Shown here piece after piece: positions 7,529-34,504 of a DNA stretch of 45,850 nt. This stretch comes from a virus. Position numbers and translations under genes: made by a program. The stretch covers positions 1-45,850 of IMG/VR virus record IMGVR_UViG_3300034374_007647, one strand, 5' to 3'. The notes beneath the pieces were generated by a model. That model was not told the origin of the DNA, did no database searches, and saw only the letters and a program-made list of their open reading frames with translations. The number at the start of each line of letters is the position of its first letter. Positions within the stretch are counted from its first letter, which is position 1.

Positions 7529-7986
7529 CTCTTGAGTGCCGCACCCTTTGGTGTCAATTTACCACCTTTGCTCGTTGGCCCTTTCACCCCGCCCATCCGA
7601 GCGCAAAAGGACTTTCGCCTCTTGGCTTTCTTTGAACCGGGTTTGAGTGTTGATGGTTTTTCAGTGACAGGCGGTTTTAGGTTTGCGCCTTCTTCACGCT
7701 TGAATTTTGCACGCCCTTTTGCGTTCAATCCACCTTCACGACTGTGGCGATTGGGGTTGTAGCCGTGAAACGGCTTATCGGACTCTTTGCTCAACAACGC
7801 CTTCGCCAATGTGTCGCAGGTGTCACAATCACACGCTGATTTTTTTGTGTCACTTGGCACACAATTCGGGACTTTTTTGCCCCGCTTGGTTTTCATGCCC
7901 ACTTGTTCGTAGCCATCCCAACACGGATCCTCTTTGGCGAATTCCCATCCAACCAAAAATGCCCCATCACCAATTGCCATCATCAT
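7516..7986 (-). CDS. Marine-phage-type protein ending in FCARM...LKRWNC, with N-terminal tag
   Basis: About 156 residues. Two blocks are familiar from marine phage proteins of unknown function: CWDGYEQVGMKTKRGKKVPNC near residue 25, and the C-terminal SFCARMGG...ALKRWNC (DUF6321-like from memory; the name needs checking). A CDCDTC cluster sits between. Residues 9-18, AFLVGWEFAK, match the tag consensus. Three successive ATG codons (7986, 7983, 7980) could start it; GGGGGC lies four bases before the first. Overlaps both neighbours. Confidence 0.65.
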   Translation of the reverse strand: MMMAIGDGAFLVGWEFAKEDPCWDGYEQVGMKTKRGKKVPNCVPSDTKKSACDCDTCDTLAKALLSKESDKPFHGYNPNRHSREGGLNAKGRAKFKREEGANLKPPVTEKPSTLKPGSKKAKRRKSFCARMGGVKGPTSKGGKLTPKGAALKRWNC

Positions 7987-11153: not shown

Positions 11154-11180
11154 AGACTCCCTCCGAACCATGTGAGTCCT

Positions 11181-13879: not shown

Positions 13880-16053
13880 CAGTCCTCACCTCGCTCACGC
13901 TTTTGCCTTTGGACTTCCTCTAATCGCTCTTGTGCTATACCTGCGAGCAAGTCATTCAATCCTATGCGTCTCGTGTTCTTTTTCATGTATTCCCGTAATG
14001 AGGTGATTTTCTCGTCTGTGGTGTCGGTTAAATTGCGATGCCACGGTGAAATGCCCTTGTGTCCACGCATAGGTGCGACTTCTCCACTGAATAATTCACC
14101 GCCCCACTTTTTGCCTTGAACATTGGGCTGTAAAATTCTCCCATCAAGTGTTGGTGCATCACTTGACGAATACCGCCCTTCTCCTTTGACATCATATTCG
14201 GACAGCATAAAGGCATCAGCGATGGCTCGTGACACAGGGTCATATTCAAATTTGGGCTTGGGTATTCGTTTCATTGGAGTGGTTCTTTTAACAGGGCCTT
14301 TCAATTTGACATATTCATCTCCACCCCAATGGTGCAAATCAACCCCTTTTCGTTCAGCCCATTCTCGGAAAGAGGAACGGTATTCGTATGGGATTTCAAT
14401 TGCGTTATCACGGGGATCATCGGTGTATTCGTAGCGGTTTTCAAGGTATGGGGATTTACCGTTGCTATCCCAAGTCGTAAATGGACCTGAATTCATCATC
14501 TCATCAATCACAGCGACTTCTTCATTCACTCGTTCTTCAAACCAACGATGGTAGGGTATGTTTGCCTCATCCCGTTCATCTTCACTCATGTGGCTATGAT
14601 CCCAAATGTCATAGCGCATAGGCATAGGACCGTGTTTTTCCATCATCCTTTCATTGACCTTATCAGCGATTTGGTATTCGTCCCATAATTTTCTTGGGTC
14701 ATTTTCACGATCTGCCTCCATTTCAAATTGCTGAGCGACCATGTTCGCCAAGTGTTGCCTCAATTGCATCCGTCCCAATTCCATTCGGAGATCTTCGGGC
14801 AAATCCTTGAGGGATTCACCTTGACCGTCACTTGTTTTGAAATGCCTTTTGATAGCGTCAATGAGAGGCTTAGCAAAATTCTTTGCTTGTTTGACTCTTT
14901 CACCATGTTGTTCCACTCGCCCTGCAATCGGGTGCATCCTAAAGTCGCCCGATTGAGCCAATATCCCATACGCTTGACCGATTGCGGCGTTTATCATGTT
15001 CTGCTGAATTCGCTCTTTTGCGGGCATCAACAAGCGTTTGCTTTCAGGTGCGTCCCTGTTTTCGGGCGGATTGCCCATGATTTCACGCAACACCGCCGTC
15101 CTACGCCCAAATCCTAAATTTGGTGAAATTTGCCTCGCAATACCATCGCCCGCTATCGGTTCTTTGACTCCTGCCGCTTTTTGCGCTCGCTCAATCGCTA
15201 AGAGGTATTTGCGTTTCATGGCTTGTGGGACACTCGTGTGCATCAGCCACTTACCCGCCGCATAGCCCGGATGATTTGGGTATTCAACGGTATATGCCGC
15301 CTTTTCATGTCCACTGCTATCCAATTGCATTTCAGGGTTGTTGAAGGCACTCAACGACAAAGCGTTCATTTGGTCTGTCCCTTTCAACCATTCTTTCATG
15401 GCTTGGGGATTATCCAACAAAAGACCTGCTAAGGATTCATATTCGTATTCACGACTTCGGTTTTCACCCTCACCCACCTTGTCAGTGAATGCCCTGACTT
15501 GTTGATTTCGCAGACCCCTTGGGTAAAGCGGATCTTCTGTTTGACCATCCCTTTGTCCGTATGAGTCGGATGACCAAGTGGTTTTCCCGGCTATGGCGTG
15601 CTTTGCTTGGTCTATGGCATCATCTATTTCTTGATGGGTGGCTTGATGACCCCCTTCGTGCATAGCAGTGTCCATAATATCCATCCCTAAGACGCGATCT
15701 CGCTGTGGGCTTAGTGCAGGAACACGATTGCCTCTTTTGTCACGAAGCCACGGGTCAGGGGCATTCTCATCAAATTTAGCACTTTCAAATTTTACATCGG
15801 TGGGTAAAGGTCGCCATCCACTGCCTTGTGCAAACGGTTCAAGAAAGGTGTATGCCTTCCCATCCCTGTGTGTGTAATAGCCCAAATAGTCACCACTGCC
15901 GTCATCGGTGGGACGGCGAATTCTCAAATCATTGTCGGGGTATGCGTTAGGATCTCCATAAGGGAATTCCCTACTAAAGAAGCGTCCTTTTGGTTCTTCA
16001 TCCGACCCCCTCACCTCTTTGATGATAGCGTCCCAAACAGCGGTAAAGGTCAT
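13879..16053 (-). CDS. Large protein with HEGGH metalloprotease-like motif and tag-like N-terminus
   Basis: About 724 residues from ATG 16053 (ATGA overlap with the upstream gene). Begins MTFTAVWDAIIK, an imperfect version of the tag. Residues 132-136 are HEGGH within DTAMHEGGHQATHQEI, fitting the HExxH zinc-peptidase motif on a helix; a third ligand is not certain. The remainder is charged and helical with no other domain recognised. It may be a virion maturation or injected protease. HExxH alone is weak evidence, so alternatives remain open. Confidence 0.55.
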   Translation of the reverse strand: MTFTAVWDAIIKEVRGSDEEPKGRFFSREFPYGDPNAYPDNDLRIRRPTDDGSGDYLGYYTHRDGKAYTFLEPFAQGSGWRPLPTDVKFESAKFDENAPDPWLRDKRGNRVPALSPQRDRVLGMDIMDTAMHEGGHQATHQEIDDAIDQAKHAIAGKTTWSSDSYGQRDGQTEDPLYPRGLRNQQVRAFTDKVGEGENRSREYEYESLAGLLLDNPQAMKEWLKGTDQMNALSLSAFNNPEMQLDSSGHEKAAYTVEYPNHPGYAAGKWLMHTSVPQAMKRKYLLAIERAQKAAGVKEPIAGDGIARQISPNLGFGRRTAVLREIMGNPPENRDAPESKRLLMPAKERIQQNMINAAIGQAYGILAQSGDFRMHPIAGRVEQHGERVKQAKNFAKPLIDAIKRHFKTSDGQGESLKDLPEDLRMELGRMQLRQHLANMVAQQFEMEADRENDPRKLWDEYQIADKVNERMMEKHGPMPMRYDIWDHSHMSEDERDEANIPYHRWFEERVNEEVAVIDEMMNSGPFTTWDSNGKSPYLENRYEYTDDPRDNAIEIPYEYRSSFREWAERKGVDLHHWGGDEYVKLKGPVKRTTPMKRIPKPKFEYDPVSRAIADAFMLSEYDVKGEGRYSSSDAPTLDGRILQPNVQGKKWGGELFSGEVAPMRGHKGISPWHRNLTDTTDEKITSLREYMKKNTRRIGLNDLLAGIAQERLEEVQRQKRERGED

Positions 16054-17687
16054 CCCCAAAGTCCCTCCACCCTAAAATTATCCTTGTCCAAAAAGCGTGG
16101 TTGCCTAAATGGTTGCCCTCGCAATCCCGGTGGTGAAAGAATTTGACCCAATTGCCGTTTGGGTATTTCTTCTTGTGTCCTGTCAATCAAATTCCGCATA
16201 TCCTCCAAAGCAATAGGTTCTATGCCTTGTTCATTCATATCCCTCGTCCCAAGCAAAAGTTTCGCTGTGTTTGGTAAAACGGGGTTGATTTGTGTGCCTT
16301 CAGGAACGGACATTGACATAATACCTCGCACAGGGTATCTGCTGTCTCGGTTATATCCCCATTGTTCTGCTCTTTGCCTTTCATTCTCCATCAAATTGTT
16401 CACATTGATTTTCGTGTTTGGGTCAATTCCCATTTCACGCAATCCTGCATCCATGGCTCTAAATGCACCCAAACCCGCAGGTGAGGCGACTGCTTCTTCA
16501 ATACGCCCTACATTTTCCAACAATGAACCCATCGTATTCAATCCGAGTCCCATTCCCCTGAACAATGGGTTCACATCAATCATCGGCCCTTGACCCAAAG
16601 CACTGATGCTTCCTGATGAAACAGGCATAGTGTCCCTGCCTTCATCCCTTCTTTCGTCAGCCCACTGCAAATACCTGTTGATACCCCCGCCGTATTGAAC
16701 CGCCTGTGGATAGTAATAGGAGTGGTCAAGGTTGGCACGCAATTCATCAGCCATCGGCATCCTGCCCGCAAGATTGGCGAATTGTTCTAATATCTGTTGC
16801 ACTCGCCAAGTGTCCATTCCTTCATGTTCAAGGAATTCTTCGGGCGAGCCTGAAATACCATGTTGGGCTAACACCTCCCACCACTCATCCTCGTCAAAGT
16901 CCTCTTGACGCAATCCCGCACTTTCAGGCGTTTCATATCCCAATTGCGTGGCGAATTCTGTTGGATCTTGCTCTAACTGTTCCAAGTGTTGCACAGCGGT
17001 GTTGAGGGGGAGACTCCCCACCGAATACATCCCCAATTGCATGGGGATTTCTCTTTGAAGCGGTCCTGTATCGGTTAGCAGTGAAGGTTGGAGATACATT
17101 GAGTAGGTGTAATCATCCCGCCCTATTTGCTTTTGAATAGCGTTCCATCCTGCATCAAAGGCATCCTCCGATGCGTAAATGTCCATGTTGTCACCAAAGG
17201 TGGATTTGGCTTCACACATATCCCATTCTTCAAGAATGCGCTTAGCGAGGTAATGCTCGGAGGTTGGGTTTCGTCTGTTGCCTACATTTGCCTTGTAATA
17301 CGGGCCGGGACGACCACCTGCAAATTGTTCAATGGCATCACGGAATTCTTCGCATGACATTTCTTCATAGGCTCGGTAAATTTCACCGTTTGTGTCAAAA
17401 TACGGAGAAGTGCGGTGATTTTTGATTCCCGCATTTGAATAGTCCGAATCGGGATGTGCTGATGCGGCAATAACCTGCCCTCCGTGAATATCCTCACCAA
17501 AAATCTCCCGCAATCCCTCAATCCACTTATTCTTTGCATCAATGCAACAGGCATCGCCACCCATGTCGGCTTGAACGGCATCCTCGCCCTCAATGGTGAT
17601 GTCAGGGTCAAACATTGACGGGGGGTTGGTGTTGGCGGGGTGTGTGAAAATACGGGGTTGCCCCTGTGGTCTTTCAAGTCCGACCAT
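16050..17687 (-). CDS. Large hypothetical protein with internal AFDAGWNAIQK
   Basis: 545 residues from ATG 17687, overlapping the upstream stop by one base (TAATG), with GGCGGG upstream. No family recognised. The N-terminal half contains DACCIDAKNKWIEGLREIF and Cys-containing helices; residues about 175-185 read AFDAGWNAIQK, matching the tag except for one extra residue before the Lys. The C-terminal half is Pro/Glu/Asn-rich. It lies between the Gp88-like and HExxH genes with overlaps, so they are co-translated. Function unknown. Confidence 0.6.
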   Translation of the reverse strand: MVGLERPQGQPRIFTHPANTNPPSMFDPDITIEGEDAVQADMGGDACCIDAKNKWIEGLREIFGEDIHGGQVIAASAHPDSDYSNAGIKNHRTSPYFDTNGEIYRAYEEMSCEEFRDAIEQFAGGRPGPYYKANVGNRRNPTSEHYLAKRILEEWDMCEAKSTFGDNMDIYASEDAFDAGWNAIQKQIGRDDYTYSMYLQPSLLTDTGPLQREIPMQLGMYSVGSLPLNTAVQHLEQLEQDPTEFATQLGYETPESAGLRQEDFDEDEWWEVLAQHGISGSPEEFLEHEGMDTWRVQQILEQFANLAGRMPMADELRANLDHSYYYPQAVQYGGGINRYLQWADERRDEGRDTMPVSSGSISALGQGPMIDVNPLFRGMGLGLNTMGSLLENVGRIEEAVASPAGLGAFRAMDAGLREMGIDPNTKINVNNLMENERQRAEQWGYNRDSRYPVRGIMSMSVPEGTQINPVLPNTAKLLLGTRDMNEQGIEPIALEDMRNLIDRTQEEIPKRQLGQILSPPGLRGQPFRQPRFLDKDNFRVEGLWG

Positions 17688-18877
17688 TAACCCACCCGCC
17701 TTTTCAGGTTGTCCCACAATATCTCAAGCATCGTTGGTGGCATTTGTGAGAGTGGGTCATCGTGATCCATATATCCGACATTTGTGCCTCTTCGGTAGCA
17801 CGCCCTGCATTTCATGGTGTTCGTGAGAGGGTCATAGACTTCATCGCACTTTCGTGGGTTGCCGGGTATAGTGGCGGGACAAATGGTCGTTTGATTGTCA
17901 AAGGCATCATAGGTTGTCCAATCAATCGCAGGGTGTTGTCCCAATTCATACAAATCAACAGTGTGCATATTGCCCAAAGGATCTCTTCCCTTCCATTCTG
18001 TTCCCGGCACAACATCGTCAGGTGTCATTTTGCCCGGTAATGAAACATTGACAGCCATGTTTTGAGCAAAGGCATCATCGTCCCACCCTCGCACATCAAG
18101 CAAATCCCTAACAAACGGGTATTGGCGTGTAGCGAGCCAAAAGTCCATGGAGGGGTTCAGCCTCGCTACGGCATCGGGTGCGGCTAAACCACCCATACCC
18201 AATGCGTCACCCGAAGTGTTCACCCTCGCTACGGGTTTATCCCTTCGTGATGTTCGCATCAATTGGGCTTGGGGAAGCACCGTATCAGCGTAAGCGGCGG
18301 TGAGTGGGATTGGGTCAGTTAGCAACCTATCCAAAGTGCGCCACATTGAGGTTTGCTTTGAATTAAAACGGTGATTTCCTTTACAGGCATAACAATTCCC
18401 ACACGCACTATTGGGGTTATCGGGTGTTGAAAAGATACAGGCTCGTGGCGGGGTGTCCATAATTGACCCACCCGCCATTTTGCTTGGTTCACCATGATGG
18501 GCTAATTTCTTAGCGGCGAGGGTCAAATCGTAAGGATTTGACAAATCTGCTCTCACCTCACTGAATTCGGGTAATTCATAGTCAATGTCAAGAGGGAAGT
18601 CAATTGTGCGGGGTGAACCATCGGGGTTATTGATGTAGGCATTCACTTTGTCGGGATTGTTGATAATCCAATCCATAATGTCAAAAGAACCCGAACCTCC
18701 TTCGGATAGGGCTTTGCCTTCGGGGTATGTTCCTCCGTAGCGTTTGTCCCACCAAAACATCTCGTCAGGATCGCCTAACGCTTTGATAAGGAGATGCCCA
18801 AGACCAACAGTCAAAGCATCCGCCATGTGTCGGTTGAAGGCGTATTGGTTGAAAGCCTTTGTTGTCATTGTTGTCAA
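17687..18877 (-). CDS. Phage Gp88-like protein (Cys-cluster family)
   Basis: 396 residues. Around residue 165, ACGNCYACKGNHRF matches the C-x2-CYA-x-KG signature of mycobacteriophage gene-product-88-type proteins. ARVNTSGDALG near residue 218 matches their VRIHVSGDF block, followed by FWLATRQ. CPAT...KCDEVYDP...MKCRACYRR near the end supplies the last Cys group. Molecular function of that family is not established. It starts 41 bases from the divergent chaperonin start; ATG 18868 is an alternative start. Confidence 0.55.
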   Translation of the reverse strand: MTTMTTKAFNQYAFNRHMADALTVGLGHLLIKALGDPDEMFWWDKRYGGTYPEGKALSEGGSGSFDIMDWIINNPDKVNAYINNPDGSPRTIDFPLDIDYELPEFSEVRADLSNPYDLTLAAKKLAHHGEPSKMAGGSIMDTPPRACIFSTPDNPNSACGNCYACKGNHRFNSKQTSMWRTLDRLLTDPIPLTAAYADTVLPQAQLMRTSRRDKPVARVNTSGDALGMGGLAAPDAVARLNPSMDFWLATRQYPFVRDLLDVRGWDDDAFAQNMAVNVSLPGKMTPDDVVPGTEWKGRDPLGNMHTVDLYELGQHPAIDWTTYDAFDNQTTICPATIPGNPRKCDEVYDPLTNTMKCRACYRRGTNVGYMDHDDPLSQMPPTMLEILWDNLKRRVG

Positions 18878-18885
18878 TCATCACA

Positions 18886-18899
18886 GGGTTAATATGCTT
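18886..18899 (+). promoter_or_regulatory. TATA-like promoter of the chaperonin gene
   Basis: GGGTTAATATGCTT lies 20-33 bases before ATG 18919 in the 41-base divergent gap. It matches the GGTTAATATAGACC family seen across the plus-strand block. The core TTAATA is nearly palindromic and might also serve the minus-strand gene starting at 18877/18868. Confidence 0.5.
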
Positions 18900-18918
18900 G
18901 GTTTGTGTGGCGGTGAAC

Positions 18919-20490
18919 ATGATGCCCAACGGTCAAGCCCCCGTGTTCATATTGCGTGAAGGAACAGAAAGAAGTCATGGTCGTGTAGCCCAATCCAACA
19001 ACATCGCCGCCGCACGAGCCGTTGCTGACGCTGTGCGTTCAACGCTTGGGCCGAAAGGCATGGACAAAATGCTCGTGGATGAAGGAGGGGATGTGATTAT
19101 CACAAACGATGGGGCTACAATCCTTCGTGAAATGGACATTGAACACCCCGCCGCAAAAATGATTATTGAAGTGTCAAAGACTCAAGAACAAGAGTGCTAT
19201 GACGGCACTACAACGGCTGTCATCCTTTCAGGCGAATTGTTGAAGAAGTCGGAGGAATTGATTTCACAAAACATCCACCCAACCACCATTTGCGACACAT
19301 TCCGCAAAGTCGGGACGGAATTAAATGCGATGATTGACGATTTGGCGTTTGATGGTGACGCTGATGCTCTTTTGAGTGTGGCTCAAACCTCGCTCACGGG
19401 CAAATCCGCAGGTTCAATTAAGGAATTCTTGGGTCGCATTTGTGTTGATGCTGTTGCACGCCTCTCAGCGAGTGGTCGTGTGGACTTGAATGAAATCATG
19501 GTCGTCAAGGCTGTCGGTGGCGAGGCTATTGACAGTCGGTTGGTTTCGTCAGTCGTTCTTGACAAAGAACGCTGTCACCCCAATATGCCTCTTTCAATCA
19601 CTTCTCCGAAGGTTTTGCTTTACAACAATTCCCTAATGGTGCAAACCACCGAAATGGATGCCAACATCCAAATCACCGATCCCAACCAAATTACAGCATT
19701 CCTTGAACAAGAAGAGGAATTCCTTCGCAACCTCGTTAGTGATATTGTGTCAAGCGGTGCAAAGGTGGTTGTTTGCCAAAAGGAAATTGATGATTTGGCA
19801 AAGCATTATCTCGCCAAAGCGGGTGTTCTCGCTGTTGAAAAAGTCCCCAAGTCCGATATTGAGGCTTTGTCACGAACCACAGGGGCTTCAATCCTGAATA
19901 ACCTTGAGGATGTGCGAGCAGGAGAGGATGTTTTGGGCGAATGTGGCTTGGTTGAGGAAAAGAAAATCGGTGAATTGCCGATGGTTTTCTTTGAAGATCC
20001 TGCAAACGCTGTGCCTGTCACCCTCATCCTTCGTGGCGGGACTGTTCCTTTTGTTGAAGAAATTGAGCGTGCCTTTGACGATGCCGTTGGTGTTGTGTCC
20101 GTTGCTCACGAGGATGGCAAAGTGCTGACAGGCGGTGGTTCTGTTTTCGCCGCACTTTCGCACAAATTGCACGATTTGGCTCAAACCCAACATGGTCGTG
20201 AGCGTATGGCGACTGAGGCGTTTGCCGAAGCGTTGCTCGTTGTTCCTCGCACGCTCGTGGAGAACGCAGGACTTGACCCCGTTGATGAAATGATGACCCT
20301 CCGCACCCATCACGCATCAAACGACAACACCGCATACGGTGTGAATGTCTTTGAAGGTGGTTTAGCGGATATGGCTGAGGCAGGAGTCTTTGAGCCAAAG
20401 CGCGTGGTTGCTCAAGCAATCAAGTCAGCGGTTGAAACCGCCATTATGATTCTCCGCATTGACGATGTAATTTCATCAAAAAAGGCTTAG
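18919..20490 (+). CDS. ths: Group II chaperonin (thermosome subunit)
   Basis: Forms ATP-driven double-ring folding chambers in archaea. About 523 residues from ATG 18919 (GGTG upstream; ATG 18922 also possible). [58 protein letters not shown] and the end MILRIDDVI are hallmark thermosome blocks. Oddities: the usual VGDGTT is CYDGTT, the usual GGGAxE is GGGSVF, and the Gly/Met-rich C-terminal tail is absent. It stands alone on the plus strand and overlaps the convergent gene at 20476 by 15 bases. Probably folds viral proteins, perhaps mixed with host subunits (inference). Confidence 0.93.
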
Positions 20491-21726
20491 AACATCCTTT
20501 GGGTGCATTGGTTTAGGTTCAAAGTGCCGTTGCTCAAGCAATTGCGAAAGGTGTTCACGAGCCATAGGTTTGTCACTAAGCGTGTAAGTGTCAATTTTTC
20601 CTGTTCTGTATTTAGGGTCATAGCCTTGAGTCCATTCCATCAATCCCTCTTGTTCTTTAGGTGACACATCCAAACCCCATTTTTCATAAGCATCCAACAA
20701 ACCCGGTGTATCAACGAATCGGTTTGTTTCTTGAAGAGTCATGCCTTGCGGTGTCACTTCACGATCAACAAACCCTCCAAGTTTTCTTCTCAACCTTTTA
20801 TGTGCAAAATCGGCGGCAAGACTTCTTGCATCATACAATGACCCCAAAGTGCCATAATGCTCAATCAAAGCAGGGAGAACCCTTTCACTATACAACCCCT
20901 GCCCTTGATAGCCTTCATCTATGTTTGCATGAACAAGCGGAATGGGCTGATTGGTGTAAGGTTCGGTGAACAGTGAATAGGCGGTGTTATGAGGTTGATT
21001 TTTATGATGGGGTCTTAATGTGCCATCGGGTTGTAGTCTTGACGCTAAAAAAGCGTTGAATTGGGTTGGCAATTGTGGGCGTGGGAGGTCAATGGCAAAA
21101 CGCCCCACTTCAAATGGCTCAGGGAGGCTTGTGTCAAACAACGCCCATTGGTCTTTATGTGGCGTTTTTGCACTTAAAGGACTCCCAACGAGTGAATAAC
21201 TCAATTCGTCATATTTTTCAATGCCGTCATCCTCATCCTGTGAATTGATGTGTTCCATTTGCATTTGGCGAACCTTCTCCATCATCTCGGCATATCCTTC
21301 ATCATACATTGGATTCGGATAGGTCAAAATGCCCGGACTACGCTCATTTTGCACAGCATCAGGCCAAATATCCTGTGGTGGGATTGGCTCACTTGATACA
21401 AACGAAGCCTGTCCACTCACTTCGTTAGGATCGTAGCCCAACAAAGCGAGCATCATGGGGCTGTGGTCTGCACCGGGTGTCATTCGTGGGTCGCCCTCAT
21501 CACGCCAAAACGGAATTACGGACACTTCGGGGCTTTGCCTTTGGGTAAATGAAATCCACCTGCGGGCGATTTCAGGGTCAAGCGAAGCATAAACCTCGCC
21601 AAAATTGCTACGAATGCCTTCACGGAGGATAGGGTCAAGGTTTTTTGTGGGTGTTGCGTGGTAATACATGGGCATTTTCACGATAGCCCAAGCGGTGTCA
21701 AAAGGACTATCACTCAGGTTCATCAT
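20476..21726 (-). CDS. Tagged ADP-ribosyltransferase-like plus GNAT-like fusion
   Basis: 416 residues from ATG 21726 (GGAG seven bases upstream). SPFDTAWAIVKMP at residues 7-19 is the tag. Then MYYHATPTKNLDPILREGI, VYASLDPEIA and IPPQDI give the H23...Y46...Q118 layout of H-Y-[EQ] ADP-ribosyltransferase folds. The C-terminal half has GYQGQGLYSERVLPAL and a later DFAHKRLRRKLGGF, matching GNAT motif A and the helix before motif B. It looks like a two-domain effector, tagged for packaging. Domain calls are by motif only. Confidence 0.6.
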   Translation of the reverse strand: MMNLSDSPFDTAWAIVKMPMYYHATPTKNLDPILREGIRSNFGEVYASLDPEIARRWISFTQRQSPEVSVIPFWRDEGDPRMTPGADHSPMMLALLGYDPNEVSGQASFVSSEPIPPQDIWPDAVQNERSPGILTYPNPMYDEGYAEMMEKVRQMQMEHINSQDEDDGIEKYDELSYSLVGSPLSAKTPHKDQWALFDTSLPEPFEVGRFAIDLPRPQLPTQFNAFLASRLQPDGTLRPHHKNQPHNTAYSLFTEPYTNQPIPLVHANIDEGYQGQGLYSERVLPALIEHYGTLGSLYDARSLAADFAHKRLRRKLGGFVDREVTPQGMTLQETNRFVDTPGLLDAYEKWGLDVSPKEQEGLMEWTQGYDPKYRTGKIDTYTLSDKPMAREHLSQLLEQRHFEPKPMHPKDVLSLF

Positions 21727-22144
21727 CTTCACTCTCCATCCATCGTTTGTATTCGGCATCCATTAGTGCGTGAATCCGTTCCCTGTAAGCGGATGGGTTC
21801 TCCCCTTCCTCAGCAGGTGGTCCTTCCCACATGATTGAAAGCATTTCGGGTGGTATGTCCCTGTTATACACATTCACATCAAAGGCGGGGTTTTGGTCTG
21901 CCTCAACCTCTTGGGATATGTGAATGACAGCGGGCGGGTCATCAGTCCACATGGCTGATGCGGCATAATCCATAGCCGCTTCATAGTCAGGTGATGAGAA
22001 TGATGACGGTGCGCCATACCAACGATCATAGGCATCGGTTTTGCGGGCTTTTAGCCCCTCTTCCATGATTTTCTTCGCCCTTGATAACGAAGTCCCATGA
22101 AAGGGCATTTTCACGATAGCCCATGCTGAATCAAACGGGGTCAT
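21710..22144 (-). CDS. Tagged ADP-ribosyltransferase-like protein
   Basis: 144 residues. MTPFDSAWAIVKMP is the tag. FHGTSLSRAKKIMEEGL (H16), SSFSSPDYEAAMDYA (around residues 47-61) and DIPPEML (E100) follow the order H / [YF]-S / E of ADP-ribosyltransferase folds; this would be a minimal version of the domain. The tail is acidic. Overlaps both neighbours by 14-17 bases. Target protein or nucleic acid unknown. T4 Alt and ModA are functional parallels, not close homologues as far as I can see. Confidence 0.6.
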   Translation of the reverse strand: MTPFDSAWAIVKMPFHGTSLSRAKKIMEEGLKARKTDAYDRWYGAPSSFSSPDYEAAMDYAASAMWTDDPPAVIHISQEVEADQNPAFDVNVYNRDIPPEMLSIMWEGPPAEEGENPSAYRERIHALMDAEYKRWMESEDDEPE

Positions 22145-22904
22145 TTTCCTTCACCTCGTCCGTAGCGTAAGACCCCAAATAATTGGCACGAAGCCAATTG
22201 TTCAATTCTTGGGGCGTGGTTCTCACCTGATTCATAGAATGTAAAATTTTATGCTGTCGCAACAATTCCCTTTGTTGCTCATCGGTCAAGGTTTTCAAAT
22301 AGTCAAAATTCCACATCATCTGATCTATCAAATTATACCGTTGCATAGCCGCATCACGCCAATTTTTCAAACGAGTGGCTAAAACGCCCAATTCTTCTTC
22401 CCCTAACCTTCGCATTGTGTGCGGGGGGACATCTCCTTTAGTGCGCCATTGGATTGAGTGTTTGGGATAGGCATAGCGGGTCAATTCCCCTGTGTCGTAT
22501 TCACTTCGTTGCCACTTGGGTTCTTTAATCCACTCAGGGGCATCGGGATGGTTTTCATCAATTTCAAAAATATCCGAACCATAGCCACTCGCTTGACTGA
22601 AAGCACCGAGCATTCCCGCAGGTGCTTGAAGTGTTTCTCTTTTGGTTGGCCCTGCCGCATATTTCCAAGTGTCACCCACCATCATCCGTTCCCAATCCTC
22701 TTCGCTGTGATCACGCAAAAATCGTTCTTTGATTTGCTCAATGGGCCAATCGTAGTCCTCGCCCCTGCGACTGTCATAGACATAATCTTGAAAATCCGCC
22801 GCTTCAGCACCTTCGGTCAAGCCCTCATGCTCAACCTCGTCACCCCAATAAGTGCCGTGATAAAGGGCTTTCACGATGCCCCAAGCGGAGTCAAAGGCGG
22901 TCAT
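22131..22904 (-). CDS. Tagged protein with ADP-ribosyltransferase-like N-terminus
   Basis: 257 residues. MTAFDSAWGIVKAL is the tag, directly followed by YHGTYWGDEVEHEGLTEG, which looks like the first strand and helix of the ADP-ribosyltransferase fold. A later Tyr-rich YVYDSRRGEDY may be the second element, but the catalytic Glu is unclear. The C-terminal 110 residues are helical and Leu/Gln-rich. The ribosyltransferase reading is weaker here than in the neighbours. Confidence 0.5.
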   Translation of the reverse strand: MTAFDSAWGIVKALYHGTYWGDEVEHEGLTEGAEAADFQDYVYDSRRGEDYDWPIEQIKERFLRDHSEEDWERMMVGDTWKYAAGPTKRETLQAPAGMLGAFSQASGYGSDIFEIDENHPDAPEWIKEPKWQRSEYDTGELTRYAYPKHSIQWRTKGDVPPHTMRRLGEEELGVLATRLKNWRDAAMQRYNLIDQMMWNFDYLKTLTDEQQRELLRQHKILHSMNQVRTTPQELNNWLRANYLGSYATDEVKENDPV

Positions 22905-23623
22905 GCTATCACCCTCGCCCCAAGCCTATCAATCAATTCATTCGTCTCCATATCAGGGAATGCCGCCCCGTATGGTGTAATGACACTCAATTCACCGACC
23001 AATTCAGCGGTTTCAGGCACAACAGCACGAACCTTTGTTCTCGGATCTTCGTTTAGGCTATCCAATTGCGTGACGACAAAATTGCCCCCATAACGATTCG
23101 GTATTGTTTTATCCCTATCTTCAAACGGCCAATAAGACACCAAAGGCGCAAAGCCCCCTTCCCTATCCAACACAATCGGCATCCCTTCGCCATGTTTGTT
23201 GTATTCAACATCATAGTCAAGGAGATCTTGGGGGTTAGCACTGTCAAACAACATTTGGTCAAGGATGTCACGAGTCGTCTGCCCCTCAATTTTCGCATGA
23301 AGCGATCTTTTCCCCGTGTCCCATGTTTTGTTTTGCATACCACGACTAATCCAAAATTTGTTGTAGTCTGTGAGGGGGATAGTGGATGAGGTAGCGAGGG
23401 TAGTCCAACCGCTTTTTCTTCCTTCAGGAGTCAGCAATTTCGGCTGAATGCTCATCATAGGTCGGTTTTTCCATGCCCTCGTTAAATTGCGAAATGAACT
23501 AATGGGTTGAACACCATCCATCAAAGAGTGTCCCCTTTCTTCTAACCAAGGTAAGCCTTTATCCGTAAAGGTGGGGGCTTCGTAGCCTTTCATCACCAAC
23601 CATGCGGTGTCAAACGGACTCAT
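22901..23623 (-). CDS. Tagged protein of unknown function
   Basis: 240 residues. MSPFDTAWLVMKGY is the tag. The rest (for example SIQPKLLTPEGRKSGW, PIVLDREGGFAPLVSYWPFEDRD) looks like a single globular domain I cannot place; no zinc cluster or transmembrane segment. ATGA-type overlap with 22131-22904. Its place in the tagged run suggests another packaged effector. Confidence 0.6.
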   Translation of the reverse strand: MSPFDTAWLVMKGYEAPTFTDKGLPWLEERGHSLMDGVQPISSFRNLTRAWKNRPMMSIQPKLLTPEGRKSGWTTLATSSTIPLTDYNKFWISRGMQNKTWDTGKRSLHAKIEGQTTRDILDQMLFDSANPQDLLDYDVEYNKHGEGMPIVLDREGGFAPLVSYWPFEDRDKTIPNRYGGNFVVTQLDSLNEDPRTKVRAVVPETAELVGELSVITPYGAAFPDMETNELIDRLGARVIA

Positions 23624-23714
23624 TTTTCTTTGCCCCCGTCACCATGCACTTCTTGGTATTAGCCTCACGCTCATCCAAACGCTTGCTGTGATAGTCAAAC
23701 CACTCGTCAAGCAA
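23610..23714 (-). CDS. Possible small ORF, TTG start
   Basis: 34 residues, LDEWFDYHSKRLDEREANTKK followed by CMVTGAKKNESV, coding-like composition filling the gap between the HMG-CoA-lyase-like gene and the tagged gene that starts at 23623 (14-base overlap). No ATG or GTG start is available and no ribosome site is clear, so it may be a remnant or untranslated. Confidence 0.25.
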   Translation of the reverse strand: MLDEWFDYHSKRLDEREANTKKCMVTGAKKNESV

Positions 23715-23725
23715 TTTACAGCGCG

Positions 23726-24613
23726 TTATAGCCTCACCACCGACCTGATACGCCCTGTGGCTTCTTGCATTTTACCTTTAATGACGGAGGTGAGAGTGGG
23801 ATAGCGAATCTGTTTGGCGAATTCCGCCGCCTCTCGCACCGCCTTATCGTTCAACGGACAGCGAATACCCTTGTCCCTGCACCACTTGAGCAGATCTTCA
23901 GTCGCCAAATTCGCACCTGAGTCCTTGACAAAGGGGCAACCCCCCAAACCACCGATGCTCGTGTCAAATTCAAAGACACCGTTGAGGTATGCGGTTTCCA
24001 CATTGGGCATGAGGTTTTTGCCGTGATGCAAATGCACAGCGAGGTTTTCTGTGTAATCGTTGGCTACATCAATACCCAAAGCGATGTCAAAGGGTTTTGC
24101 TGTCCCCGAAGTGTCGCATAACACGATTTTTTCACCATAGGTGAGTCCTTTTTGCACGACATCGGCTAATTGCTCAACACACCCACCAAATGCCTTTGAA
24201 ATATACACACGCACATTTTCACGAGGCACATCCGTCAGCATTTTGTCATAAATCGCTGTGATTGCCTCAAGGTCTTTACCGAAATTGCGCTTGTTAAAAT
24301 CATCATCAGGGGACAGCACAATGTTGAATTTGGTTGCACCAACCGCCTTTGCACGCTCTAAACCCTTGTCATTCATCACCAATACCGAATACGAAACATC
24401 GTTTTTCCTGCGGAGAACCCCCTGCACCACTTCTTCACCATCAGCCATGTTCGGAACAAGGCGAGGATTGACAAACGAAGCCACTTCAATGTGCTTTACA
24501 TTGGTCTTTTCAATGAGGCTAATCAAGTGCAATTTGTCCTCCGTAGCCACGAAATGCGACAGGTTTTGAAGGCCGTCACGGGGTGCTACCTCAAAAATGG
24601 TAATACCCGCCAT
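23726..24613 (-). CDS. HMG-CoA lyase-family enzyme (DRE-TIM metallolyase)
   Basis: HMG-CoA lyase cleaves hydroxymethylglutaryl-CoA to acetoacetate and acetyl-CoA in leucine breakdown. 295 residues from ATG 24613, the usual family length. EVAPRDGLQN (R12, D13), metal-ligand pair H194-x-H196, GLGGCPF with catalytic C226, and ATED with N235 are all in family positions. The canonical HxHDT is HLHHG here, so substrate or metal details may differ. It lacks the tag although surrounded by tagged genes, which suits a metabolic gene acting inside the infected cell. Likely acquired from a host. Confidence 0.8.
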   Translation of the reverse strand: MAGITIFEVAPRDGLQNLSHFVATEDKLHLISLIEKTNVKHIEVASFVNPRLVPNMADGEEVVQGVLRRKNDVSYSVLVMNDKGLERAKAVGATKFNIVLSPDDDFNKRNFGKDLEAITAIYDKMLTDVPRENVRVYISKAFGGCVEQLADVVQKGLTYGEKIVLCDTSGTAKPFDIALGIDVANDYTENLAVHLHHGKNLMPNVETAYLNGVFEFDTSIGGLGGCPFVKDSGANLATEDLLKWCRDKGIRCPLNDKAVREAAEFAKQIRYPTLTSVIKGKMQEATGRIRSVVRL

Positions 24614-24644
24614 GTGCGGTGTGAGAGCGTGACGGGTGAAAAAG

Positions 24645-25535
24645 TTAGCGGGGGTCAAGTGAATTCCAATCACTTCCCCATATCGCTTTGCCATCGTGGG
24701 TGACTTCTTTTGTTGAATAACGAGAGTGCGGTTCAATCAATTCCAAAAATTCACGAATGCCTTCTTGATTCGCTCGCAATTCATCCATATCATTTTCCAT
24801 CCAATAGCCATCATCTTCTAAGCCTCTAATATCGGTCATATCGGGCAAACGGTCTATCAAACGGCTAACGGGCAATTCAAGACCCATCGCGTGAGTCCTC
24901 CCCATCCAATCCTCCGCCCTCTCCTTTGGGGTCATCTCCTTGTAATTGTCAAAGCCGACAGACCACGGACCGCCCTGCAAATTGAAATCAAAAAATCTCG
25001 GCAATCCTTTGGGATCGATTCCAATGTTATCACCATGCTTGTCAGTGGCTATTCCATCCAAAACCCTTTGAGCAAGTGCGGTAAGCCCCGGACGCTCATA
25101 CGGTGGCTTTTCACCCACCTTCTCCCAATGTTCACCCGGTCCTGTTATCAAACGAGGTTGAATGTTGAAGAAACCATCACCTTCACGGTGCATCTCCGAC
25201 ACAACAGGATAACCCAATTCCTCCAAGGCAACATTGAACGGGTTTGCACGCATACGCATTATGTTCCTGTAAAGGGCTTCTTCATCAAAAAAATCACTTG
25301 AGCCGGGTCTTTTGGCAACAAATGAATCACTGTGTGGGTGAACAAACGGCACAATGTCCTTTGGTAGGTAATAATTGCTTTGCATTCGGGCGTTTTTCAC
25401 AGCATCGCGATCCTCCCAATTGAAATTAAAATCAAAATCATTTGCTTCATCAATCAAGGGGAGAGCGTCAATTTTTTGCCTCCAATCAGGAGTCCACTCT
25501 TTCAAGAGCGACCAAGCGGTGTCAAATGCGGTCAT
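24645..25535 (-). CDS. Tagged protein with kinase-like catalytic loop
   Basis: 296 residues from ATG 25535 (ATGA overlap). MTAFDTAWSLLKEW is the tag. Residues 165-184, D165-x-H167-x-D169-N170-I-G followed by FFDF (D183), resemble the catalytic loop and metal-binding DFG-type Asp of protein-kinase-like folds (H-x-D-x-x-N and DFG equivalents). Upstream, ALEELGYPVVSE and NIQPRLI could be the N-lobe/hinge strand. A classical Gly-rich loop is not obvious. A kinase effector would parallel T7 gp0.7. Moderate confidence. Confidence 0.5.
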   Translation of the reverse strand: MTAFDTAWSLLKEWTPDWRQKIDALPLIDEANDFDFNFNWEDRDAVKNARMQSNYYLPKDIVPFVHPHSDSFVAKRPGSSDFFDEEALYRNIMRMRANPFNVALEELGYPVVSEMHREGDGFFNIQPRLITGPGEHWEKVGEKPPYERPGLTALAQRVLDGIATDKHGDNIGIDPKGLPRFFDFNLQGGPWSVGFDNYKEMTPKERAEDWMGRTHAMGLELPVSRLIDRLPDMTDIRGLEDDGYWMENDMDELRANQEGIREFLELIEPHSRYSTKEVTHDGKAIWGSDWNSLDPR

Positions 25536-26266
25536 ACCCAATCATCCTCCGAATATCCCGCTTCTTCGGCGGCTTTTCGTTGCCAATCCTCTAAATCCTC
25601 CCATTCGCCAAGCATTTCAACCATGCTATCGTCATAGCCAAGTGCCTCTATGAAATCGTCATAGTCAGCCGTTCTAAACACATCTCCATCCATCTCATAA
25701 CTTGGTGGGCGTGGGTTGAACCTCTCAAGTGATTCGTTGTTTCTATAAGCAATCAATCGGCTTAAAGCGTCTTTTGCGTGTTGCCCTCTTTGTTCAGGAG
25801 TGAACAATTCACCTGTTGTTCCTCCCATAACCCCCTCATATCGCCTTTCATCAATGTATTCTTGAAGCAATTCAATAACTCGGTCATGCGATAAGCGTTC
25901 ACCCATATTCTCATCATCCATAACACCGACATCGGGGCTAAACGGATCTTCTTGCATTATGTGTGCGTATTCTTCAAAATCGCTTGGGTCAATGGTGCTA
26001 ATGCTCGGTATTGTTCTTCGCATTGGTGGAGAGGATTTTCCTTCTGTATCTCTTTGCCCTCTAAAATCAGCGTAAGGAATGGCTGAACCATACAAAGCAT
26101 AATGCAAAGCAAGATCAAGGTCATTTGAATAATAGCGTGGTTCATCTCTAAAATCCCCCCCGCTAAACAGCATTTCATCATCGCCAATCTCTCTTACCCG
26201 CCCACGATCCGAATAAACATCAATGGGGGCTTTCAGCAAAGCCCAAGCGGATTCAAAGGCGGTCAT
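25532..26266 (-). CDS. Tagged acidic protein, possibly ribosyltransferase-related
   Basis: 244 residues from ATG 26266 (ATGA overlap). MTAFESAWALLKAP is the tag. PRYYSNDLDLALHYALYG near residue 43 resembles the Tyr-Ser strand and following helix of ADP-ribosyltransferase folds, but the HGT element is missing. The C-terminus is highly acidic (EEAGYSEDDWV). Could be a diverged or inactive member, or an unrelated domain. Confidence 0.5.
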   Translation of the reverse strand: MTAFESAWALLKAPIDVYSDRGRVREIGDDEMLFSGGDFRDEPRYYSNDLDLALHYALYGSAIPYADFRGQRDTEGKSSPPMRRTIPSISTIDPSDFEEYAHIMQEDPFSPDVGVMDDENMGERLSHDRVIELLQEYIDERRYEGVMGGTTGELFTPEQRGQHAKDALSRLIAYRNNESLERFNPRPPSYEMDGDVFRTADYDDFIEALGYDDSMVEMLGEWEDLEDWQRKAAEEAGYSEDDWV

Positions 26267-26742
26267 AACCCTCTCCCCATCGTTTGTTGTAATTGTTTTT
26301 TCCATTCATTCATGGCTTTATACCACGCTTGCCCCTTTTCATTTCCTTCCCACCTATCACGGAACGGGGGTTTAGGAGGGCCATAGTGAACAGTCAATTG
26401 CTCAGGAGGAACGGTGCGAGTCGTATAGGCATAATTGGCGAATGATTCTTCTTGGATTGGATTTTCGTTATTCACTGCGCTATCAGGAAATTCAAGAACC
26501 ACAGGGTCGCCCCGATCCCTGCTGTCCTCTTCGGCACGATACATAGCCCATGAAGTCGCTTTTTCAGGTTTCGTGGCGTAATACAGGCGAGCCTCCCACG
26601 GTAAAAAGTCTCCCTGCTCATCACGATCTCTAAACGAACCTCTTGGCTGTAAGCCATCACGCATGATTTCCTCTAACCTGTCGGTTGTAGTGCCGTGATA
26701 CGGCATTTTGAGCAAAGCCCATGCGGATTCAAAAGCGGTCAT
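26263..26742 (-). CDS. Tagged ADP-ribosyltransferase-like protein, best-conserved copy
   Basis: 159 residues. MTAFESAWALLKMP is the tag. YHGTTTDRLEEIMRDGLQPRG (H16), RLYYATKPEKATSWA (Y54/Y55) and VPPEQL (E114) give a clear H-Y-E order with normal spacing, and the compact length suits a single catalytic domain that transfers ADP-ribose from NAD to a target. ATGA overlaps both sides. T4 Alt is injected with the genome and modifies host RNA polymerase; a similar role is inferred. Confidence 0.65.
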   Translation of the reverse strand: MTAFESAWALLKMPYHGTTTDRLEEIMRDGLQPRGSFRDRDEQGDFLPWEARLYYATKPEKATSWAMYRAEEDSRDRGDPVVLEFPDSAVNNENPIQEESFANYAYTTRTVPPEQLTVHYGPPKPPFRDRWEGNEKGQAWYKAMNEWKKQLQQTMGRGL

Positions 26743-27152
26743 AGGTCATCCCTCAAATCAACATGACCTTCTTCGTGCCTTTGACTCCAAAATTTATGGG
26801 CGTTCTCATCAAGAATTTCATCCCGATTCACATACGGCTTGAAATTAGGGTATCGGGTCTGTATTTCTGCAATCATTTCCAATAATCGTTCTCTCCCCAA
26901 ACCTTGTCCTTGTAATTGATGTGGGATAGCAAATGCGTGTATTAGTCCGTCTTTTAGTGCCATTCCTCTCGCATCATCCAATTCGGAAGCCCATGAAATG
27001 CTGTTTGTTGTATGTGGTCTTAAATTGTGCAAAAAACCATCCAAATCACCTTCTTTTGCCCTTGCCCGTTCATTCCATGTTTTCGGTGCTTTATCACCCA
27101 TCTCATACAAAGGCATTTTCAATAACGACCAAGCGGTGTCAAAGGCGGTCAT
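26739..27152 (-). CDS. Tagged GNAT acetyltransferase-like protein
   Basis: 137 residues. MTAFDTAWSLLKMP is the tag. LIHAFAIPHQLQGQGLGRERL has the GNAT motif A signature Q-x-x-G-x-G that binds the acetyl-CoA pyrophosphate, and NAHKFWSQR near the end fits the motif B helix (A-x-x-F-[YW]). Such enzymes acetylate protein or small-molecule amines. Probably a tagged effector; the substrate cannot be read from sequence. Confidence 0.6.
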   Translation of the reverse strand: MTAFDTAWSLLKMPLYEMGDKAPKTWNERARAKEGDLDGFLHNLRPHTTNSISWASELDDARGMALKDGLIHAFAIPHQLQGQGLGRERLLEMIAEIQTRYPNFKPYVNRDEILDENAHKFWSQRHEEGHVDLRDDL

Positions 27153-27772
27153 TGTGAATTATCCCTCCAATAATCATCTTCCCACCGACCATACCTTTCA
27201 AGGGCAACATCAATTTCATCTTGAGGCAAAATGCGAATATGTTTAGGTGGTATTGTTTGATTTGTCAATGACACTTCGGGAGGCAATTCATAATGCGGGG
27301 GCTTCAAGCCCCATCCCAAAGAAGGAAAATCATCAATTTCCAAAATTACAATTGGGTTATCAATCTCATCATAGTCAATGTCGCCCGATTCACCATATCC
27401 AAACGCTTCTAAAATCCCATATTCTTTACCTCCGATGTTGTCTTTTTTTCGTGGCATTTTATCGTTGTAGGCATAAGTGACCCCCATTTGCATATTTTCA
27501 CGGTCTTTTTGACGAGCCTCTTCTAATTGTTCAATGGTGTATTCAATTGGTTGCCTTGAATAATAATTTTTATCCCTCATCGCTTCAAGACTATCTATGT
27601 GCGGTTCTCCCCATTGAAGAAGGCGTTCAAAATAATGTCGTAATGCGTTATCATAATTAAATGAAGAGGTAGGCTTCAATCCTTCTTGCATAATTTTCTC
27701 CGCATTTTTACGGTTAGTGGCGTGATACATCGGCATTTTCAGCAAAGCCCAAGCGGTATCAAAGGCGGTCAT
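27149..27772 (-). CDS. Tagged ADP-ribosyltransferase-like protein
   Basis: 207 residues from ATG 27772 (ATGA overlap). MTAFDTAWALLKMP is the tag, followed at once by MYHATNRKNAEKIMQEGLKP (H17). A VSLTNQTIPPKHIRI block near the C-terminus matches the IPP-x-x-I strand of its relatives, with Lys in place of the catalytic Glu/Gln, so activity may differ. The central insertion (about 50-150) is charged. Confidence 0.55.
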   Translation of the reverse strand: MTAFDTAWALLKMPMYHATNRKNAEKIMQEGLKPTSSFNYDNALRHYFERLLQWGEPHIDSLEAMRDKNYYSRQPIEYTIEQLEEARQKDRENMQMGVTYAYNDKMPRKKDNIGGKEYGILEAFGYGESGDIDYDEIDNPIVILEIDDFPSLGWGLKPPHYELPPEVSLTNQTIPPKHIRILPQDEIDVALERYGRWEDDYWRDNSQ

Positions 27773-28335
27773 AGGTCGTCCCTCACAGGCCATGTTTTAC
27801 GGTTTTTCCACATCCCCTTTGCCGCCGCCTTTTGTTCGTGCGAAGGATTCAAAGCATGACCCCCCTGCTTGTCCATCAAGTGAGCGATAACATCATACAA
27901 AGCGGAAGCATACCCCCTGTTTCTAAACCCCTCTCTTGTTTCACTCCAATGGGGAAACCTGCTTTCAGCACCTTGATTGAAATTAACGCCTGTTATTGCG
28001 CGTCTTAAATCGGGAATAACGGGGACTAAACGCCCTTCGGCATTGGCCGTTGTATCTCCTTCATCGTTATACCTCAATTTTCCTTCTTTGGAGTTAGGAT
28101 CTGCGCCGATTGCACCTTTATACGATTCGTATTTTTTCCCTTCACGATTCAAAAAAGAACCGTAATCAACAAATAAAGGCAACAATTCTTGTGTTTCGGG
28201 GTCTTGAAATAAGGTTTTGAAACGCTTTGTATCTGTATAAAACGAACCCGCATTTGGGTTTTCGCCAAGGTATTCCAATTGATTCGGAACAACGGGCATC
28301 TTCACAATGCCCCAAGCGGTGTCAAATGCCGTCAT
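27769..28335 (-). CDS. Tagged GNAT-like protein
   Basis: 188 residues. MTAFDTAWGIVKMP is the tag. Near residue 145, EGFRNRGYASALYDVIAHL matches GNAT motif A (R-x-x-G-x-A), and LNPSHEQKAAAKGMWKNR matches a common GNAT ending with a P-S...G-x-x-[LM]-W pattern. The N-terminal half has no clear assignment. Overlaps both neighbours. Confidence 0.55.
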   Translation of the reverse strand: MTAFDTAWGIVKMPVVPNQLEYLGENPNAGSFYTDTKRFKTLFQDPETQELLPLFVDYGSFLNREGKKYESYKGAIGADPNSKEGKLRYNDEGDTTANAEGRLVPVIPDLRRAITGVNFNQGAESRFPHWSETREGFRNRGYASALYDVIAHLMDKQGGHALNPSHEQKAAAKGMWKNRKTWPVRDDL

Positions 28336-28697
28336 TCAAGATTCCTCCTTTGACGATGGCTTAGGTTGATGTTTTGAGGGTCATGCAAAGCACTTTGGCA
28401 TTGTTCGCATCGTTGTAAGTGCCTTTGCCCAAATGCTTCATTGATGAAAGAAGCGTTGGTTTTTATTCCCCCAAACAATTGACCCGTTGTTGCATAATCC
28501 CCGCATTGATAGCCGATGAAAAAACCATTTGGATCGGGTTCAATATGAACAATTGGATATTCAAGACCGATTTCATTAGCAAGGTGTTCTGTTGGATTGA
28601 CGGGTGCTTTTTCGGGCGGTGGTGGTGCGAAGGGATCACCTTCGCTTTTCCAATCGTTAAATTTGAGCAAGTCCCAAGCGGATTCAAATGCGCCCAT
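28332..28697 (-). CDS. Short tagged protein with one CxxC
   Basis: 121 residues. MGAFESAWDLLKFN is the tag, followed by a Pro-rich linker (FAPPPPEKAPVNP) and a small domain with GFFIGYQCGD and RCEQCQSAL, perhaps a minimal zinc site. Overlaps the upstream gene's end by 14 bases. No family recognised. Confidence 0.55.
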   Translation of the reverse strand: MGAFESAWDLLKFNDWKSEGDPFAPPPPEKAPVNPTEHLANEIGLEYPIVHIEPDPNGFFIGYQCGDYATTGQLFGGIKTNASFINEAFGQRHLQRCEQCQSALHDPQNINLSHRQRRNLE

Positions 28698-29430
28698 GCT
28701 TCACCACATCCCATGCAGAAGTGAATGCGTCAGCACTTGCGAATTTATCACCAAAGCCTTCGGGGAAGCCGAATTCCCTGTCGCTAAGGGGCGGTTTGAC
28801 AAGCATTGGGTCTTCACCCATACCCCATCGTATATCGTTCAAACTGCCTTCCATTTGCGCCGTCATGTTAGCACGCTGATTGGGGTCGCCGTGTGCTGTT
28901 CGGCGGGCGGCTTCCTCAACCAATTCAGCCAAAAAGGGAATATCGGCTTTTGACTGCGTTAGTGCGCTGATGCGCTGAGCCAATTCCGCATCGGTCATGT
29001 TGGCGAATGGATTCTCAGGCACAGCGACTTCTTGATCGGGAGGCACAGGCATCTCTTCATCGTCCTGTCCGTGGTGTATTGGGTAGCCGTATTCATCCTC
29101 ATCATCGGGGATAATGGGGTTGCCTTCGTCATCCAACGAGCCGTCAAGCAACATATCCGATACGCACTGCACACAATACGCACCACCATTGAATTCGGGG
29201 TGATTTTCAATTGGATGCCCGCTGTCAATTTCACCACGATAACCGGGATTGTCATACCCGCCTTCTTCTATCATGCACGATTCACACACATCTTGCCCGC
29301 ACTGCTCACACCCGTATTGTTTGCCGTCAGGAATTGGGTCATGGCAATATGAACATTTGGGATCCTCGTCATATTTGAGGATTTTACCTATCACAGCACT
29401 ATCCCAAGCGATGCGGAATGCCGTAGGCAT
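28684..29430 (-). CDS. Zinc-binding protein with tags at both ends
   Basis: 248 residues, first gene of the leftward block. TAFRIAWDS at the N-terminus is tag-like, and ADAFTSAWDVVKHGR at the C-terminus is a full tag. Between them CSYCHDPI...CEQCGQDVCESCMIEEGG...CVQC forms a RING/ZZ-like set of metal ligands (residues about 22-85), then an acidic linker and an Ala-rich helical part. Having tag copies at both ends supports the idea that the tag is a portable signal. Confidence 0.6.
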   Translation of the reverse strand: MPTAFRIAWDSAVIGKILKYDEDPKCSYCHDPIPDGKQYGCEQCGQDVCESCMIEEGGYDNPGYRGEIDSGHPIENHPEFNGGAYCVQCVSDMLLDGSLDDEGNPIIPDDEDEYGYPIHHGQDDEEMPVPPDQEVAVPENPFANMTDAELAQRISALTQSKADIPFLAELVEEAARRTAHGDPNQRANMTAQMEGSLNDIRWGMGEDPMLVKPPLSDREFGFPEGFGDKFASADAFTSAWDVVKHGRI

Positions 29431-30395: not shown

Positions 30396-30410
30396 GGGTT
30401 CATATAGACC
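30396..30410 (+). promoter_or_regulatory. Promoter element before the SF1 helicase
   Basis: GGGTTCATATAGACC lies 28-42 bases before ATG 30438 and matches the shared plus-strand element, with CGCAGGGTGTGG just downstream. Confidence 0.5.
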
Positions 30411-34490: not shown

Positions 34491-34504
34491 GGTTAATATA
34501 GACC
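34491..34504 (+). promoter_or_regulatory. Promoter element before the DUF932-like gene
   Basis: GGTTAATATAGACC, 33-46 bases before ATG 34537. AGGAGG at 34524-34529, seven bases before the start, implies a short leader. Confidence 0.55.

Follow-up and report, generated by a model that had tools for sequence, protein, structure and literature searches.

A short helical tag on diverse late proteins of magrovirus-like viruses, a candidate signal for virion cargo

The window, i.e. the whole 45.9-kb IMG/VR virus record analysed here, contains a cassette of adjacent late genes whose products share a short peptide tag joined to different bodies. The tag is a helical peptide of 10 to 12 residues, of the type TAFDxAWxLLK. 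It is real and large in extent, and apparently undescribed. We consider it probable that the tag is a docking helix: like the capsid-targeting sequence of T4, it would bring effectors into the capsid, from which they are injected. Judged by their gene content and by a related contig in a single-cell genome, the viruses carrying it are magrovirus-like tailed viruses of Poseidoniales.

The tag in the window and in related viral contigs

The strict core motif, F..[AGS]W..[LIVMATF]K, matched 16 times on the minus strand of the window and never on the plus strand, and the reversed motif matched once. When the residues of the minus-strand proteins were shuffled 2000 times, the strict core appeared on average 0.03 times per shuffle, with a maximum of 2. 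A preliminary description of this DNA had listed eleven genes starting with the tag. All of them exist and start in this way, with one exception of detail: in the open reading frame 20476-21759 (possible starts at 21759, 21726 and 21723) the tag is preceded by a short leader, MNLSDSPFDTAWAIVK. The same description had reported the tag as N-terminal, in at least eleven genes; it is neither N-terminal throughout nor confined to these eleven genes or to this virus. Copies that it had missed form the exact C-termini of genes 28684-29430 (ADAFTSAWDVVKHGRI, then stop) and 12806-13879 (SADPFDYGWAVLKGSQ, then stop), lie in the N-terminal regions of 7516-7986 and 527-2506, and occur internally in 6890-7528; a weaker N-terminal tag-like sequence was recognised by eye in 13879-16059. 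The tagged set is therefore not limited to 20476-29430, and tagged proteins were also found in related viral contigs. At the cassette junctions, 4-bp overlaps of the ATGA type were seen in 7 of 12 cases, all between tagged genes. The copies in the window are as follows.

28656-28697, minus strand: N-terminal tag MGAFESAWDLLKFN of gene 28332-28697 (121 aa)
28294-28335, minus strand: N-terminal tag MTAFDTAWGIVKMP of gene 27769-28335, GNAT-like body (by fold)
27731-27772, minus strand: N-terminal tag MTAFDTAWALLKMP of gene 27149-27772, KptA/Tpt1-like ADP-ribosyltransferase body (by fold)
27111-27152, minus strand: N-terminal tag MTAFDTAWSLLKMP of gene 26739-27152, possible GNAT-like body
26701-26742, minus strand: N-terminal tag MTAFESAWALLKMP of gene 26263-26742, ADP-ribosyltransferase-like body
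26225-26266, minus strand: N-terminal tag MTAFESAWALLKAP of gene 25532-26266, conserved family with 14 tagged relatives
25494-25535, minus strand: N-terminal tag MTAFDTAWSLLKEW of gene 24645-25535
23582-23623, minus strand: N-terminal tag MSPFDTAWLVMKGY of gene 22901-23623
22863-22904, minus strand: N-terminal tag MTAFDSAWGIVKAL of gene 22131-22904, ADP-ribosyltransferase-like, YHGT
22103-22144, minus strand: N-terminal tag MTPFDSAWAIVKMP of gene 21710-22144, ADP-ribosyltransferase-like
21676-21702, minus strand: tag core FDTAWAIVK close to the N-terminus of gene 20476-21759 (YHAT body)
28699-28725, minus strand: C-terminal core FTSAWDVVK, then HGRI and stop, of the zinc-binding-like gene 28684-29430
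12818-12844, minus strand: C-terminal core FDYGWAVLK, then GSQ and stop, of gene 12806-13879; C-terminal in the related record G048 too
7933-7959, minus strand: N-terminal core FLVGWEFAK of the DUF6321 protein 7516-7986 (Pfam 3.6e-18)
7250-7276, minus strand: internal core FAMGWSLVK in the cysteine-rich protein 6890-7528
2381-2407, minus strand: core FSMAWDLTK, residues 34-42 of the protein 527-2506, adjacent to the terminase large subunit (TerL)
13879-16059, minus strand: gene with the weaker N-terminal tag-like MTFTAVWDAIIK (by eye)

Gene 28684-29430 also carries an N-terminal look-alike of the tag, MPTAFRIAWDSAV, and its G048 orthologue has a C-terminal tag. The DUF6321 protein is tagged in most relatives, including its orthologues in G002, G035 and G040.

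A search of related viral genomes, as the preliminary description had proposed, found the tag widely. A degenerate pattern anchored on ATG matched 71 stretches of viral contigs, and gave 0 matches in 257 Gb of bacterial and archaeal genomes of GTDB, where about two chance matches were expected. The motif occurred 303 times in 70 fetched loci (3 times when reversed), and 259 of the 281 nonredundant matches were N-terminal. Among 50 whole records, 49 carried the tag, with hundreds of matches against a single match of the reversed control. We also examined 31 further records that had been picked by their major capsid protein (MCP), ignoring the tag; 23 were tagged, with 93 matches and 0 control matches. 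The tagless ones were excluded as counter-examples, being judged from contig coordinates to end before the start of the cassette.

Clustering the bodies without the tag resolved 330 unique tagged proteins of these contigs into 156 families. In an alignment of 90 family representatives, the only invariant positions, bar a few gap-dominated columns, were F, W and K of the tag, and the shared stretch was MxAFDxAWxLLK. The tag is therefore modular, as had been suggested, and not part of one larger homologous domain. Internal tags lay at domain junctions, e.g. between two fused tagged bodies in G018, or in a 778-aa protein of G002, where the tag precedes the GP88-like part, and one protein of G035 was tagged at both ends. 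Two single open reading frames (L022:12144-13526 and L128:5377-6462) resemble two fused tagged genes with the second tag kept internally.

The sequence logo read [T/S/N]-[A/P]-F-[D/E]-x-A-W-x-[LIV]-[LVM]-K-[A/M/S]-[P/D], with the information ending two residues past Lys. A residue S, T or N, then A or P, and D or E three residues on constitute a classical helix N-cap box. AlphaFold models of two unrelated tagged proteins (27149-27772 and 27769-28335) both contained a separate helix at residues 3-11, and the tag helix was amphipathic, with a mean moment of 0.51 versus 0.32 for body 9-mers; the helix proposed earlier thus agrees with both analyses. At the DNA level, the information resided in codon positions 1 and 2, and synonymous third positions were nearly free, meaning that selection acts on the peptide. 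We find it hardly credible that the shared 5′ sequence works at the level of DNA or RNA, either as an enhancer of translation start or as a recombination handle for cassette exchange. Its position at gene starts and the visible DNA repeats would fit such a role, but the near-free synonymous positions and the same peptide at C-termini and domain junctions have already largely refuted it. An upstream translation signal was likewise rejected on the codon test and the C-terminal tags. The C-terminal and junction copies exclude a start-codon effect and fit a docking peptide.

Tagged bodies, host and gene context

Searches of the tagged bodies against Pfam and PHROGs gave almost no annotation, so that folds were used for the assignments; the tagged protein 27149-27772 gave only one weak match in a phage collection. 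Its model (mean pLDDT 68) best matched KptA/Tpt1 ADP-ribosyltransferases (Foldseek probability 0.99, E 0.02), and the model of 27769-28335 (pLDDT 82) best matched GNAT acetyltransferases (probability up to 0.99, E 0.04-0.1). Both assignments are putative, made at the level of the fold and with weak E-values; 26739 may be GNAT-like as well. The bodies had been called otherwise unrelated, which holds only in part: at least five of the eleven (20476, 21710, 22131, 26263 and 27149) look like one ADP-ribosyltransferase-like group with the signature Y/F-H-G/A-T. HExxH was present in 35 tagged proteins, against an expectation of 3.3, and 33 had paired CxxC, where 0.3 would be expected. Among the bodies are putative KptA-like ADP-ribosyltransferases and GNATs, together with HExxH proteases and zinc proteins, and their folds and motifs support the effector-like character predicted for them.

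The tagged proteins diverge rapidly. Between the window virus and G048, whose TerL is 99% identical, the median identity-times-coverage was 32 for tagged late proteins and 93 for untagged ones (p = 0.0004). Tagged proteins diverged faster than their untagged late neighbours in three genome pairs (p = 0.0004, 0.005 and 0.016). An untagged gene within the cassette, with an identity-times-coverage of 86, diverged more slowly than its tagged neighbours and serves as an internal negative control:

23726-24736, minus strand: HMG-CoA lyase-like gene, untagged (Pfam 1.3e-20)

Two further roles of the tag can be weighed against these bodies. It might join the tagged proteins into one structural complex (inner body, tail or surface) with no injection, as the conservation of some of them near TerL (527-2506 and 7516-7986) would allow; we regard this as quite improbable, given that the diversity of the bodies, the enzyme folds and the rapid turnover are ill-suited to a fixed structure. 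A degradation or toxin-control tag, keeping toxic effectors inactive or unstable until needed, would suit the toxin-like enzymes among the bodies. Small zinc proteins and TerL-adjacent proteins are tagged too, however, and we know of no degron that matches the tag, which leaves this explanation a very slender chance.

Of the 50 tag records, 46 carried one terminase lineage, in two clades (identity to the G040 query about 80% and 46%), and 38 had the same MCP. The relatives encode MCP, portal, head maturation protease, tape measure and TerL (PHROG), and G017 also encodes a B-family polymerase (PolB), a clamp-loader-like AAA ATPase and an ERCC4 nuclease. Gene order is shared between the window and its relatives, with the tags on the late strand, near TerL, portal, protease and MCP. 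The only named relatives of the MCP belong to haloarchaeal and other archaeal tailed viruses. Magroviruses have an HK97-fold MCP, portal, protease, TerL, PolB, clamp loader, chaperonin, HMG-CoA lyase and two opposed modules (PMC10768690, PMC5332604). The tag viruses share this genome type with the magroviruses (Magrovirales, Aoguangviridae), including the thermosome and HMG-CoA lyase (PMC10768690, PMC5332604). The group itself is thus already known, and the earlier suggestion of something possibly undescribed stands for the tag and the tagged arsenal, of which we found no mention in the literature searched, some key magrovirus papers lying outside that search.

An MCP search of GTDB matched a single genome, on a 106-kb contig (CACGHY010000002.1; L230-L236) of the Poseidoniales single-cell genome AG-422-I20, with 81% identity. 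In the third of this contig that was examined, two tagged genes come directly downstream of the portal gene, with a 4-bp overlap between it and the first of them, and protease and MCP follow; the tags therefore occur within the head cluster as well as in the accessory cassette. AG-422-I20 was probably an infected cell, giving a direct host link. As an association in one cell of a relative, and not proof for the window virus, it points to a Poseidoniales host. Poseidoniales are among the commonest surface-ocean archaea, and to our knowledge no virus of theirs is in culture. That this is an archaeal virus, as the preliminary description had it, is supported by these results, as are its tailed type, the placement of tags on the late strand beside head genes and the rapid change of the bodies.

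This context bears on a different role, in which the tag directs proteins to an intracellular place (a membrane, a replication or an assembly site) instead of the virion. The amphipathic helix is compatible with it, as is the conservation, in the same viruses, of small membrane proteins and a Gtr1/RagA-like GTPase. The fixed register, the capping box and the invariant F, W and K, however, resemble a protein-binding peptide, not a generic membrane helix, and the late and head-cluster placement of the tags also speaks against it; on balance, we consider intracellular targeting unlikely. The second role involves a gene adjoining the cassette in the window:

18859-20490, plus strand: thermosome (group II chaperonin), untagged, on the strand opposite to the tags (Pfam 1e-162)

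The tag could be a client signal for this virus-encoded chaperonin, which was present in 24 of 31 long tag-bearing records. Such a role appears very improbable, as very small zinc proteins are tagged too, the chaperonin lies on the other strand, and no chaperonin was detected in G018, a record of 92.8 kb with many tags, although it may be incomplete. Short terminal chaperonin tags are, as far as we know, not an established mechanism.

Docking and packaging

We favour loading into the capsid, in which a portable helix of about ten residues would mark cargo for the procapsid of a magrovirus-like Poseidoniales virus. During late expression, the tag helix would bind a conserved inner component of the head, most likely either the MCP or the scaffold portion of the prohead protease. 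ADP-ribosyltransferases, GNATs, metalloproteases, zinc proteins and the other tagged proteins would travel in the virion, be ejected along with the DNA and act at once in the next cell. Effectors that act on host molecules are encoded here among late genes, and would be of most use when transported in the particle; this, together with the T4 precedent, suggests the docking of cargo during procapsid assembly. That two TerL clades have nearly the same tag implies that its partner is well conserved, and the MCP is the most conserved of the head proteins compared; the C-terminal, scaffold-like part of the protease is an alternative candidate.

In T4, the first ten residues of Alt and the internal proteins suffice for capsid targeting, and residues 4 and 7 matter most (PMC9026906). 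The T4 sequence (IPI-III and Alt; protease gp21) is likewise a short N-terminal peptide that several proteins share, an ADP-ribosyltransferase among them, and the virus is again tailed and encodes a prohead protease; residues 4 and 7 of the T4 peptide are comparable to F4 and W8 of the tag. A prohead protease exists in the present virus group also, with a head maturation protease in G040 (PHROG E = 2.5e-22) and orthologues in relatives. The tag differs in having about 156 body families, an invariant F-W-K, C-terminal and internal copies and an archaeal host. A cleavage site of the gp21 type, L/I-x-E, was not found at the end of the peptide, which closes with the invariant Lys and not Glu; for this reason, and since we infer the virion location, we do not claim membership of the T4 type.

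Encapsulins are cellular compartments with few cargo types, usually bearing C-terminal peptides. In the general description of them (PMC8346489), a short peptide at the end of a protein directs diverse enzymes into a shell of HK97 fold, and the tag can be likened to it. The tag system is viral and mostly N-terminal, with many cargo families and with the MCP and the protease scaffold as candidate receptors. Enzymes such as ADP-ribosyltransferases are found among the MuF/portal-fused and polyvalent phage effectors; their genes lie near head genes or are fused to them, and the products are thought to be injected (PMC9503650). Those systems use a whole fused structural domain or a giant multidomain protein, whereas here a 10-residue helix is carried by many small proteins. 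The basic adaptor domain of PBCV-1, a eukaryotic algal virus, is also a short module shared by diverse viral enzymes, but its sequence is basic and different.

An optional and weaker extension, suggested by the MCP site SG[TS][DE]LLK[AS]D[SA]P, is a possible cut by the prohead protease behind the invariant Lys (LLK|A). The MCP has an invariant LLK[AS]D, which aligns with SKAD of HVTV-1, and [LIV][LIV]K[AS] was enriched at the N-termini of late proteins (54 versus 13.9).

Several points weigh against this account. The binding partner, the packaging and the injection are each something that we infer. Unlike the T4 sequence, the tag is sometimes C-terminal or internal, and a C-terminal tag is irremovable by a cut after Lys. 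The enrichment of LLK[AS] in other late proteins was modest when families were counted once (7.6 vs 2.7 ± 1.6), and the LLK of the protease, which coincides with the conserved first strand and the fold end, was rejected as cleavage evidence and left uncounted. The tag pattern is absent from HVTV-1 and HCTV-1, which are distant relatives, and some tagged proteins may simply be assembly factors.

More tentatively, and with considerable doubt, we propose a lineage-wide cargo code: one uncleaved helix, at either end of a protein, would bind a conserved inner site of the HK97-fold capsid and serve an exchangeable arsenal of more than 150 families, such that the tag alone would predict injected effectors. 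If the tag marks virion cargo, candidate injected effectors become listable in hundreds of metagenomic viruses. The system would then be the first of its kind described in archaeal viruses, as far as we found, and HK97-type capsids could be supplied with a small, portable peptide for loading. How tailed viruses select the non-structural proteins that they pack, a long-open question, becomes testable with it.

Further features of the window

At the edge of the window, TerL is cut:

1-516, minus strand: terminase large subunit (PHROG 9.3e-28)

Genes 5186-6880 and 10248-11171 had been candidates for portal and MCP and gave no match in the phage collection; they were rejected, as full relatives place the true portal, protease and MCP outside the window. 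Gene 17687-18877 (minus strand) encodes a GP88-like protein (Pfam 4.2e-12) with conserved CxxC pairs. In G002 the tag stands just ahead of the GP88 domain, and the G018 orthologue begins with a tag variant, MQAFETVWSLLKMP. The small GTPase resembling Gtr1/RagA, encoded by 11205-11933 (minus strand), scored just under the cut-off (E = 2.8e-4). It is present in most relatives and in the single-cell virus, adjoining small membrane proteins, and is unusual for a tailed virus.

A second N-terminal motif, DxLLLKARxEM or NDLILKAR, noted for 527-2506 and late proteins of relatives, starts several late proteins without the main tag. On the plus strand, the repeat GGTTAATATAGACC was found at 30397-30410, 34491-34504 and 43125-43138. 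Its first two copies precede the plus-strand start codons at 30438 and 34537 by about 30-35 bp, and the repeat is possibly an early promoter box.

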